DNA from: Candidatus Fusobacterium pullicola
GTDB taxonomy: Bacteria; Fusobacteriota; Fusobacteriia; Fusobacteriales; Fusobacteriaceae
Assembly: GCA_018883725.1 (NCBI GenBank)
Contig: JAHLFN010000067.1
Span: 1-64,000, forward strand
DNA: 64,000 nucleotides
Reading direction: 5' to 3'
The position numbers were made by a program, and so were the translations under genes. Positions 14,848-47,994 of this stretch are shown piece after piece. A model generated the notes under the pieces. That model searched no databases and was not told where the DNA came from. It saw only the letters and a list, made by a program, of their open reading frames with translations. Each line of letters begins with the position of its first letter. Position 1 is the first letter of the stretch.

Positions 14848-14918
14848 ACTTTTTAAATAATTTTTTAATAAATAAAAAAATATATAATATTTATTATAAT
14901 TAATTTATAATAGTATTA

Positions 14919-15081
14919 GATAGCTCTCCATTGAAATTTTCAATGACAGTAAAGCAGATCTTATCTGAATTACCAACAAAAATCCTTTGACCTTGATTTT
15001 CATTTCGGCAATCTCCCCTTTCATATCTCCTCAAAGTCTGTCAAACTCCGAGATACTACTTATGTCAATTGCACCTCTATC
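14919..15081 (-). ncRNA. lysine riboswitch aptamer (L box)
   Basis: Read on the minus strand, the RNA starts GATAGAGGTGCAA, carries AGTAGT, GGGGAGATTGCCGAA and CTGTCATTGAAAA, and ends GGAGAGCTATC. These are the conserved blocks of the lysine aptamer in the correct order and spacing. GATAG and CTATC close P1. It is about 163 nt long and lies upstream of lysA, the decarboxylase making lysine. Confidence 0.95.
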
Positions 15082-15090
15082 ATTTTTGCT

Positions 15091-45275: not shown

Positions 45276-45298
45276 TTCATGGAAATTTAAAATGTTAA

Positions 45299-45439
45299 CC
45301 ATCAAGAGAGATTGAGGGACTGGCCCTATGACATCTCAGCAACCTGCTTTTCAAAAGTGTGGTGCTAACTCCTGATAGATGGATGAAAACTTGGACTTGA
45401 TTTATGAGCCCTTCATCTATCTAGGTGAAGGGATTTTTT
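45299..45439 (+). ncRNA. SAM-I (S-box) riboswitch with terminator
   Basis: The aptamer (45299-45382) has CCATCAAGAGAG, GAGGGACTGGCCCTATGA, CAGCAACC and GGTGCTAACTCCTG, the conserved S-box order; CCATC and GATGG close P1. The terminator is CCCTTCA (45409-45415) with TGAAGGG (45426-45432) and TTTTTT. GATAGATG (45374-45381) can instead pair with CATCTATC (45414-45421), giving an antiterminator when SAM is scarce. It controls metK, the SAM-making enzyme, which should be shut off by its product. Confidence 0.97.
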
Positions 45440-45479: not shown

Positions 45480-46634
45480 ATGAAAAATTTAACTTATTTT
45501 ACATCTGAATTCGTATCACCTGGACATCCTGATAAAGTATCTGACCAAATATCTGATGCTGTATTAGATGCTTGTCTTGCTGATGACCCTAATTCTAGAG
45601 TAGCTTGTGAAGTTTTCTGTACTACTGGGCAAGTTATCGTTGGAGGAGAGATTACTACTTCTACTTACATTGATATCCAAGATATCGTTAGAAGAAAAAT
45701 TGATGAAATTGGATATAGAGAAGGTATGGGATTTGACTCTAACTGTGGAGTATTAAATGCTATACATGCTCAATCACCTGATATCGCTATGGGAGTAGAT
45801 GTTGGTGGAGCTGGAGACCAAGGAATAATGTTTGGTGGAGCTGTTAAAGAAACTCCTGAACTTATGCCATTAGCTCTAGTATTAGCAAGAGAAATATTAG
45901 TAAAACTTACTAAAATGACTAGAAGTAAAGAGTTAGTTTGGGCTAGACCTGATGCTAAAGCTCAAGTAACATTAGCTTATGATGAAAATGGAAAAATAGA
46001 TCACGTTGATACAATAGTATTATCAGTACAACACAATCCAGATGTAACACAAGAACAAATAAAAGCTGATGTAAAAGAAAGAGTAATAAAACCAGTATTA
46101 GAAGCATATAACTTAAATCCAGCTGATGTAAAAAAATATCATATCAACCCAACAGGAAGATTTGTTATAGGAGGACCTCACGGAGATACTGGGCTTACAG
46201 GAAGAAAGATAATAGTAGATACTTATGGTGGATACTTTAGACATGGTGGAGGAGCTTTCTCAGGAAAAGACCCTTCAAAAGTGGATAGATCAGCAGCTTA
46301 TGCAGCAAGATGGGTAGCAAAAAATATAGTAGCGGCAGATTTAGCATATAAATGTGAAGTTCAACTATCATATGCAATAGGAGTAGTAGAGCCAACATCT
46401 GTAAAAGTAGATACATTTGGAACAGGAAAAGTAAGTGAGATAGAACTTGCTGAAGCAGTTAAAAAGGTATTTGATTTAACACCTAGAGGAATAGAAAGAT
46501 CACTAGAATTAAGAAGTGGAAAATTCAAATATCAAGATTTAGCAGCATTTGGACATATTGGAAGAACTGATTTAGATATTCCTTGGGAAAAAACAAATAA
46601 AGTTGAAGAATTAAAAGCTGCATTAAATAAATAA
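45480..46634 (+). CDS. metK: S-adenosylmethionine synthetase
   Basis: Makes SAM from methionine and ATP. Signature motifs are [16 protein letters not shown] at the start, [10 protein letters not shown] and [19 protein letters not shown]. The 384 residues match. AGGAGG precedes ATG 45480. Its SAM also feeds speD, the decarboxylase at the left end of the window. Confidence 0.98.
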
Positions 46635-46725: not shown

Positions 46726-46754
46726 TTGACTTTTTTATTAAAAAGGTGTATCCT
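46726..46754 (+). promoter_or_regulatory. promoter of the asnA leader
   Basis: TTGACT (46726-46731), a 17-base spacer and TATCCT (46749-46754). Transcription would begin near 46761, about 28 bases before the leader peptide start. Confidence 0.65.
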
Positions 46755-46788
46755 TAACACATAGATTTTAAATTTTATGGAGGCAGAT

Positions 46789-46863
46789 ATGAGATTTCAC
46801 ATTTTTGGTTTGACTGCACAATTTAATAATAACAATAATAATATGTCGAGGTTTGGACTTTAA
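46789..46863 (+). CDS. asnA leader peptide with six consecutive Asn codons
   Basis: A 24-codon frame behind GGAGG (46779-46783, five bases from ATG). It begins MRFHIFGLTAQF, then six Asn codons in a row at 46825-46842 (five AAT, one AAC), then MSRFGL and TAA. It lies upstream of asparagine synthetase and ahead of competing hairpins and a terminator. That is the layout of amino-acid attenuators such as those of his, trp and phe operons, with asparagine as the sensed residue. The peptide itself probably has no other function. Confidence 0.88.
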   Translation: MRFHIFGLTAQFNNNNNNMSRFGL

Positions 46864-46967
46864 GTAGTATATGTTTTTCTACTTGTGGTACAAATCTTTT
46901 TCGAGTTTAACTGATTTGTACCCGACCTTGTTTATAAGCCATTCGGGTACACCGAATGGCTTTTTTA
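46850..46967 (+). promoter_or_regulatory. asparagine attenuator: competing hairpins and terminator upstream of asnA
   Basis: Segment 1 GGTACAAATC (46887-46896) pairs perfectly with segment 2 GATTTGTACC (46913-46922). Segment 2 also gives TGTACCCGA (46917-46925), a perfect complement of segment 3 TCGGGTACA (46943-46951). Segment 3 overlaps the 5' arm of the terminator AAGCCATTCGG (46936-46946) / CCGAATGGCTT (46952-46962) plus T tract. Segment 0, GGTTTGGACT (46850-46859), inside the leader-peptide end, can pair with segment 1 at nine of ten positions, two of them G-U. Stalling at Asn codons would leave 0:1 and 2:3 formed and so allow read-through. Confidence 0.82.
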
Positions 46968-46998
46968 TGTAATAAATAACTGTTAAGGAGTGATATAT

Positions 46999-47994
46999 AT
47001 GACAAAAACTTATGAGTGTAAATTGGATCTATTTGAAACAGAGGTAGCTATAAAAAAAGTTAAAGACTTTTTTGAAAGAGCTTTAGCTTATGAATTAAAT
47101 TTAACTAGGGTATCTGCACCACTTTATGTAAGAAAATCTTCTGGGCTAAATGACGATTTAAGTGGAATTGAGAGACCTGTTAACTTCGATACTCACTGGG
47201 ATAGAGATGAAGAGTATCAAATTATACATTCATTAGCAAAATGGAAAAGAATGGCTCTTAAAAGATATAAATTCCCTGTACATACTGGACTTTATACAGA
47301 TATGAATGCAATTAGAAGAGATGAGGATTTAGATAATATTCACTCTATGTATGTTGACCAATGGGACTGGGAGCTTATTATAAATAAAGAAGAGAGAACA
47401 ACTGAAACTCTTAAAGCTATTGTTAAAGATATCTATAAAGCACTTAGAAAAACAGAGGAGTTCATCAATAGAGAATATCCTGTATTTACAACAAAGCTAC
47501 CAGAAGATATTTTCTTCATAACTTCTCAAGAGTTAGAAGATGCTTATCCTGAACTTACAGCAAAGCAAAGAGAAAATGAGATCTGTAGAGTGCACAAGGC
47601 AGTATTTATTTCTCAAATTGGTAAAACTTTAAGATCAGGTAAAAAACATGATGGAAGAGCTCCAGACTATGATGACTGGGAATTAAACGGAGATATATTA
47701 GTATGGAACCCTGTACTAGAACAAGGATTTGAACTTTCATCTATGGGAATTAGAGTAAGTGAGGAGAGCTTACAACTTCAATTAAAACTTGATGGTAAAG
47801 AGGAGAGAAAAGAACTTCCTTTCCATAAATCACTTTTAGCTAAAAAGCTTCCATATACAGTTGGAGGAGGAATCGGGCAATCTAGAATCTGTATGTTCTT
47901 CCTTGAAAAACTTCATATCGGAGAAGTACAAGCTTCTATTTGGCCAGAAGAAATGGTTGAAAAATTTGCTAAAATTGGAGCTCATTTCCTATAA
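46999..47994 (+). CDS. asnA: asparagine synthetase A (ammonia-dependent)
   Basis: Makes asparagine from aspartate, ammonia and ATP. The family signature includes SGLNDDLSGIERPV, QWDWE, GKKHDGRAPDYDDWELNGDI and the C-terminal GGGIGQSRICMFFLEK. At 331 residues it matches E. coli AsnA. The start is ATG 46999; the GTG at 46990 sits inside the AAGGAGTG ribosome site. Its leader (46789-46967) carries the asparagine attenuator. Confidence 0.97.
   Translation: MTKTYECKLDLFETEVAIKKVKDFFERALAYELNLTRVSAPLYVRKSSGLNDDLSGIERPVNFDTHWDRDEEYQIIHSLAKWKRMALKRYKFPVHTGLYTDMNAIRRDEDLDNIHSMYVDQWDWELIINKEERTTETLKAIVKDIYKALRKTEEFINREYPVFTTKLPEDIFFITSQELEDAYPELTAKQRENEICRVHKAVFISQIGKTLRSGKKHDGRAPDYDDWELNGDILVWNPVLEQGFELSSMGIRVSEESLQLQLKLDGKEERKELPFHKSLLAKKLPYTVGGGIGQSRICMFFLEKLHIGEVQASIWPEEMVEKFAKIGAHFL

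Follow-up and report, generated by a model that had tools for sequence, protein, structure and literature searches.

A candidate asparagine-sensing leader-peptide attenuator upstream of asnA in fusobacteria, and its possible kinship with the trpB motif

The window, a stretch of 64,000 nucleotides from Candidatus Fusobacterium pullicola, carries on its forward strand the gene for aspartate--ammonia ligase, asnA (46999-47994). The identity given to this gene in the original prediction is borne out by domain searches: its product matches PF03590 with an E-value of 4.7e-110 and reaches the equivalog cut-off of TIGR00669 (349.7 vs 292.8 bits). Next upstream of the asnA leader is an ORF at 45480 that by eye resembles S-adenosylmethionine synthetase, and it lies behind a SAM riboswitch at 45296-45385 (+, 73.8 bits). 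The window also contains a lysine riboswitch at 14913-15087 (-, 118.9 bits).

The features described next all lie on the plus strand upstream of asnA. A promoter-like site, TTGACT-17-TATCCT, occupies 46726-46754 (TTGACT 46726-46731, a 17-nt spacer, TATCCT 46749-46754; 9/12 consensus matches). The predicted promoter is thus present in letters, but it is a weak lead, because the scan returned 7 such sites against 2.6 expected. A Shine-Dalgarno sequence, GGAGG (46779-46783), precedes a short ORF at 46789-46863 (ATG 46789-46791, TAA 46861-46863) that reads MRFHIFGLTAQFNNNNNNMSRFGL*. The predicted leader peptide can be written as MRFHIFGLTAQF-NNNNNN-MSRFGL, with codons 13-18 (46825-46842) forming six consecutive Asn codons, and a second in-frame ATG at 46777 overlaps the Shine-Dalgarno sequence. 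The ribosome-binding site, start codon and six-Asn frame of the original prediction can accordingly be read directly in the sequence.

Behind the Asn run follows a chain of segments with alternative partners. The tail of the leader frame, AGGTTTGGAC (46849-46858), can pair at 9 of 10 positions with GTACAAATCT (46888-46897), as had been proposed for the end of the frame and segment 1. An inner hairpin spans the leader stop codon (46862-46884, with 46862-46867 paired to 46879-46884). Segment 1, GGTACAAATC (46887-46896), can form 10 bp with GATTTGTACC (46913-46922) in segment 2 (46913-46925), which can instead use TGTACCCGA (46917-46925) to form 9 bp with segment 3, TCGGGTACA (46943-46951). This last segment, the antiterminator partner, overlaps the 5' arm of an intrinsic terminator at 46936-46966 (stem 46936-46962, 11 bp; T run 46961-46966), the only terminator between 46600 and 47050, where shuffles lead one to expect 0.1. 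The competing helices of the original prediction were therefore all found at the lengths it gave. The 178-nt leader RNA folds better than 200/200 shuffles (z -3.27). Its full-length minimum-energy fold contains both the segment 1:2 helix and the terminator, and also places the leader tail in a rival pairing with GACCTTG (46924-46930). Neither this rival pairing nor the hairpin over the stop codon had been mentioned before.

The run before asnA looks like more than chance. In the whole 1.94-Mb genome, AAY x5 (a string of five Asn codons) turns up at 5 places (7 overlapping matches; the reversed pattern gives 5 matches), and at the other 4 places the frames lack an ATG-started short ORF. The genome encodes AsnRS, and inspection by eye of 415 nt upstream of its asnS showed no Asn-run leader. 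A covariance-model scan of the genome returned no T-box match, and searches of Rfam with the Asn leader site returned chance-level matches only and no riboswitch family.

We found AsnA in 78 of 98 genomes of the phylum, at 80 places, and examined the upstream DNA of all 80. An Asn-run leader is present at 36 of these loci, in eight genera (g1, g2, g3, g5, g11, g13, g14 and g29). In 34 cases a complete leader lies no more than 500 nt upstream. The other two counted are a leader truncated by a contig end with its Asn run still visible (L055), and that of G019 (L202 and L026, on C8), whose Asn leader and terminator are intact but lie about 740 bp upstream of asnA; leader and gene have apparently been split there by an insertion, and part of the intervening stretch reads N. 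No leader was found within 500 nt at 44 of the 80 loci: 30/30 in family f4, 6/12 in g1, 1/2 in g2, 3/3 in g4, 2/2 in g6 and 2/3 in g11. Eight Asn-containing ORFs (L004, L006, L009, L013, L028, L037, L048 and L051) were left uncounted; they have TTG or GTG starts and no terminator was seen between them and asnA. Some of these discarded ORFs begin within TTGAC promoter-like boxes.

A terminator was sought for 32 of the 36 leaders, leaving aside the near duplicate L030, L055, L065 and G019, and stands 48-90 nt after the leader stop in 32/32. At L065 (G056) no terminator is in view and the leader stop is 33 nt from asnA, which reflects either a natural loss of the terminator or an assembly collapse. 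Across the same 32 leaders, the window's among them, the Asn codons comprise 309 AAT and 38 AAC (347 in total) and the longest unbroken run varies from 3 to 12. Since run length varies and 38/347 codons are AAC, it is the peptide, not the repeat, that seems to be kept, as the predicted conservation of the Asn run called for.

This bears on a much simpler account, in which the run is a functionless AT-rich repeat, (AAT)n, and the terminator merely ends another transcript. Such runs are common, AAY x5 being found in 93 of the 98 genomes of the phylum, but those before asnA are in frame with a Shine-Dalgarno sequence and an ATG across the eight genera, and they are interrupted by AAC and other codons. 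Helices that co-vary downstream of the runs, and sister leaders that use other amino acids (both below), also speak against it, and we hold this account to be scarcely credible, the least probable of those considered.

The helices were assessed on an alignment (A2) of 20 class I leaders from g1, g5, g13 and g14, comprising 19 distinct rows; the statistics of the covariation and swap tests that follow ignore relatedness. In the terminator, 100% of the cells are paired and 35 are changed on both sides (0/500 shuffles for pairing, for cells and for covariation score), with both-side changes at 6 of its 8 pairs (2/500). The tail:segment 1 helix is 89.5% paired (1/500 shuffles; covariation score 7/500), against at most 50.9% for slid versions; its number of pairs with both-side changes (137/500) and its pair types (489/500) are not significant. 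The inner hairpin, at 61.5% paired, is not clearly above its slid versions, and its both-side changes, at 6 pairs, deserve little weight because they come from L075 and one cell of L035. Segment 1:2 is 76.8% paired with weak statistics (20, 32 and 48 of 500 shuffles), and segment 2:3, at 74.0%, is not significant.

Because MAFFT places g14 poorly in that region, 1:2 and 2:3 were recounted on a smaller alignment (A3) of 14 of the 20 rows, chosen after the A2 result and lacking g14 and the near-duplicate L030. On A3 the antiterminator 2:3 is 92.7% paired (0/500 shuffles for pairing and covariation score; 78/500 for the number of pairs), and segment 1:2 is 89.3% paired with covariation that is not significant (76/500). 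A partner-swap test, which is free of alignment and includes g14, was run on the 20 leaders: the true partners of the inner hairpin, 1:2, 2:3 and the terminator beat 20,000/20,000 permutations, and for the tail 378/20,000 permutations reach the true value. The comparative test suggested in the original prediction thus comes out in its favour, with the expected compensatory change seen for the terminator and, on A3 without g14, for the antiterminator, but not for segment 1:2. Separately, a stretch after segment 1, CAAATCCATTTT (A2 columns 67-77), is strongly conserved, more than pairing demands; a polymerase pause site would fit there.

We then asked of the folding model whether the position of the ribosome could set the outcome. 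With the leading edge of the ribosome at 13 nucleotides past the A site, the RNA from that edge to the terminator loop was folded and scored for how far upstream RNA holds the 5' arm of the terminator. In the 19 class I leaders the mean is 0.48 when the ribosome stands on the first Asn codon of the longest run and 0.28 when it stands on the stop codon, the former being higher by more than 0.2 in 10/19 and lower in none; equilibrium folding does not separate the two positions by 0.2 in the remaining 9. The 12 class II leaders give 0.61 and 0.16 (higher by more than 0.2 in 11/12, lower in none), and the g29 leader 0.66 and 0.60, a difference below 0.2. When the ribosome is placed at the last Asn instead, the family averages a difference of 0.305, and none of 40 shuffled sets exceeds 0.139; in this comparison L035 is slightly reversed, and the value of the window's leader alone is reached by 6/40 shuffles. 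The modelled folding supports the predicted stall and stop logic as a family average, not for every member.

From these models and the sequences we would put the probability at about 0.9 that the element controls asnA by ribosome-mediated transcription attenuation in response to charged tRNA-Asn. It has a short leader ORF with a Shine-Dalgarno sequence, a codon run matched to the product, a terminator before the gene and a conserved antiterminator exclusive with it. When Asn-tRNA is scarce, the ribosome would stall on the Asn run, so that the leader tail, with the inner hairpin, would stay free and hold segment 1; segment 2 could then pair with the terminator 5' arm, and RNA polymerase would continue into asnA. 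With ample Asn-tRNA, the ribosome would reach the stop codon and cover the tail, upon which segments 1 and 2 would pair, the terminator would form and asnA would stay off. Class II folds show the terminator arm paired directly with the leader tail or with sequence at the stop, and the class II Asn leaders (g2, g3 and g11) seem in these models to use this shorter route.

Because a stall would expose, not mask, the first pairing arm, an untranslated leader should lean to read-through. The means without a ribosome are 0.42 for class I, 0.57 for class II and 0.12 for g29, which suggests read-through by default for classes I and II. The full-length minimum-energy fold has 1:2 and the terminator, so read-through would have to arise kinetically. 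Control of another sort through the same hairpins, for example by a protein-bound antiterminator or a Rho effect, draws some force from this, since an untranslated full-length RNA can form the terminator and the attenuator reading is built on sequence and folding. We nevertheless think it very improbable, as it leaves unexplained both the Asn run and the presence of a pairing tail right behind it.

As a control, we collected 80 asnA loci by protein search, largely from Clostridia, 78 of which had enough upstream DNA (77 of them non-fusobacterial). No short ORF containing NNN occurs in the 450 nt upstream at any of the 78, and a T-box precedes asnA in 10 of 20 comparison loci scanned. The original prediction left this task to T-boxes in Firmicutes; it was incomplete, as some fusobacteria have Asn T-boxes too. 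Strict filters gave T-box matches in 20 of the 98 genomes of the phylum, 2 over the cut-off, and in 10 genomes a match falls no more than 440 nt from where the asnS match begins. Three further T-box loci that we read (L171, L172 and L175) precede asparagine synthase genes (PF00733); in L171 and L172 two T-boxes stand in tandem there, and both genomes also carry an asnS T-box. What we take to be the specifier position, assigned from general T-box anatomy, is AAC in 8 alignments. Before fusobacterial asnA, 20 of the 44 leaderless loci were scanned without a T-box match at E up to 0.1, and none of the 40 of 80 loci scanned has one over the cut-off. Some fusobacteria therefore do have Asn T-boxes; those that we read precede asnS and asparagine synthase genes, not asnA. 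Five genomes (G053, G054, G055, G057 and G059) have a T-box near asnS together with an asnA Asn leader, and these seem to hold both kinds of Asn-tRNA sensor.

A covariance model built from A2 and run on the genomes of the phylum returned 45 matches in 31 genomes. The 21 matches of at least 97 bits all lie before asnA; 20 of them are in the model and that of G019 is new. The other 24 score 38-50 bits (E 1e-4 to 0.01 per genome), and in 19/19 of those inspected the leader is rich in one kind of codon. Leaders of this set, which the original prediction had not anticipated, include a His leader before an amino-acid ABC binding protein; Met leaders before metG, a MetN-like ATPase and an O-acetylhomoserine sulfhydrylase; Ile leaders before ilvD and a BASS-type transporter; a mixed aromatic leader before DAHP synthase; and a Pro leader (3 codons) before putP. 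Representatives of metG, the sulfhydrylase, ilvD, DAHP synthase and putP pass their NCBIfam cut-offs. The MetN, His binding protein and BASS carrier genes are below theirs, so their substrates are not settled, and no gene was seen after the leader at two loci (L196 and L201).

In 32 hand-chosen leaders of mixed kind, the true partners outdo 20,000/20,000 permutations for each of the four helices (31 rows for the tail). The switch scan covered 61 of 62 other leaders, omitting L249, where no terminator was found, and some of the terminators it used are located poorly; here stall exceeds stop by over 0.2 in 26 and the reverse holds in 1, with means of 0.62 and 0.44, a weaker separation than in the Asn set. 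Without a ribosome these 61 leaders have a mean of 0.33, leaning the opposite way from classes I and II. The asnA leader is the only match of the A2 model in the window's own genome. That genome has a second similar attenuator (L206, G000:C13:30960-31075), found as an RF04312 match, whose leader, MKREFILLNLATIHHHHHG, contains five His codons and which precedes an amino-acid ABC binding protein gene.

RF04312 is the trpB motif, described as a strong riboswitch candidate with over 900 members in Firmicutes and Fusobacteria and with ligand unknown; its authors add that it could still be a classic attenuator (Narunsky et al. 2024, PMC11109978). Six of 15 sister-attenuator loci match RF04312, below its cut-off. 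The model does not match 5 Asn loci at E up to 0.1, nor the window's leader at E up to 10. Run on fusobacteria at E up to 0.001, it finds 46 places, spread over 38 of the 98 genomes and all below the gathering cut-off (0/98 genomes over). We read 20 of the 46: 19 have a fitting leader (His, Tyr or Trp), and one (L221) is false, being the end of a rubredoxin-like gene with no leader. The His leaders stand before a binding protein gene or hisZ (the best match of 7 genes, though below its cut-off), the Tyr leaders before tyrS, which passes its cut-off in 2/2, or an AgcS carrier gene, and the Trp leaders (L217 and L218, with only one or two Trp codons) before TrpX. Of 48 genomes that hold outside asnA loci, 3 match RF04312, at 6 places in all; the leaders there are His, Tyr or Phe-rich.

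Further matches come from a sample of 398 genomes of one class, by inference Bacilli, in which 9 candidates per genome were scored. At least 19 genomes match and at least 10 do so over the cut-off. All 11 of the above-cut-off matches listed (L232-L241 and L251) follow a Trp-codon leader, and 10 of these 11 leaders have W-x-x-W, for example WQNWRR, two codons before the stop. Of 21 matches listed in this sample, 17 follow a leader preceded by a Shine-Dalgarno sequence, one (L245) follows a leader without a clear one, and three (L247, L248 and L250) were set aside as leaderless. Fifteen of the 17 Trp leaders are followed by a gene of at least 200 codons, and 15/15 of these genes pass the TrpX cut-off (NF041285); the other two (L234 and L238) lack one in the next 900 nt. 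L245 tells against a perfect fit, with a Tyr/Phe-rich leader (YYFSYF) before a TrpX-type protein that scores 384.2 against a cut-off of 390.

Given that 11/11 of those Bacilli matches follow a Trp-codon leader, the riboswitch candidate RF04312 is probably a leader-peptide attenuator. If the asnA element were a metabolite-binding riboswitch, as the describers of the related trpB motif guessed for that motif, its short ORF would be incidental. The filing of RF04312 as a strong riboswitch candidate (PMC11109978), and conserved segments such as the one after segment 1, count in favour of that view, but no riboswitch family matches at the Asn leader site, and the codon run tracks the downstream gene (Asn with asnA, Tyr with tyrS, Trp with trpX, Pro with putP, Met with metG) while the chain of helices stays. 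For the asnA element a riboswitch is thus highly unlikely in our judgement. The Trp members of the trpB motif and the fusobacterial His, Tyr and Trp leaders share with this element the succession of tail, segment 1, segment 2 and terminator, although the model of the motif misses the window's leader and the link runs via intermediate leaders. We lean towards the view that Fusobacteriota and Firmicutes have one modular chassis whose codon run can be swapped (Asn, His, Met, Tyr, Trp, Ile, Pro, Phe or mixed aromatic), with the trpB motif as its Trp version and hence no riboswitch. The least certain part of this proposal is that the untranslated leader leans to read-through, unlike that of E. coli trp.

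The kind of control proposed for asnA, ribosome-mediated attenuation, is already known. In the classic trp attenuator the control codons lie inside segment 1, which a stalled ribosome masks. The asnA element resembles the trp- and his-type attenuators of Proteobacteria in its leader peptide with a product codon run, its mutually exclusive helices and its terminator before the gene, and differs in its Asn specificity. The classic trp geometry does not apply, as the first pairing arm comes after the Asn run, so that a stall would expose it and completion would mask it. T-boxes bind tRNA directly and have no ORF. An Asn T-box (RF00230) likewise senses tRNA-Asn and ends in a terminator; the asnA element has a leader ORF instead and is unmatched by RF00230. 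A published parallel, from Naville and Gautheret 2010 (PMC2965389), is a His leader before hisZ/hisS* in bacilli, with switching between T-box and leader peptide. It too is a leader peptide outside Proteobacteria and Actinobacteria that replaces a T-box, but for His and in bacilli; the words 'fusobacteri' and 'asparagine' are absent from the accessible text of that paper. The available portions of PMC8632094, PMC4833913, PMC5009743 and PMC10989985 hold nothing on Asn control. We found no earlier report of an asparagine attenuator or of fusobacterial leader attenuators in the open literature, most subscription papers lying outside the search. Three things are new as far as we searched: the specificity for Asn, the geometry with an exposed tail, and the connection with a modular family to which the trpB motif belongs.

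The anatomy set out in the original prediction is confirmed, and the function it proposed, judged from sequence and modelled folding, is most likely right. If so, asparagine joins the amino acids sensed by leader-peptide attenuation, and fusobacteria give to leader peptides a task for which many Clostridia have T-boxes. An orphan RNA motif from the literature, with its more than 900 members, would gain a testable identity, and the family as a whole suggests an exchangeable sensor, in which swapping the codon run would swap the amino acid that is sensed.
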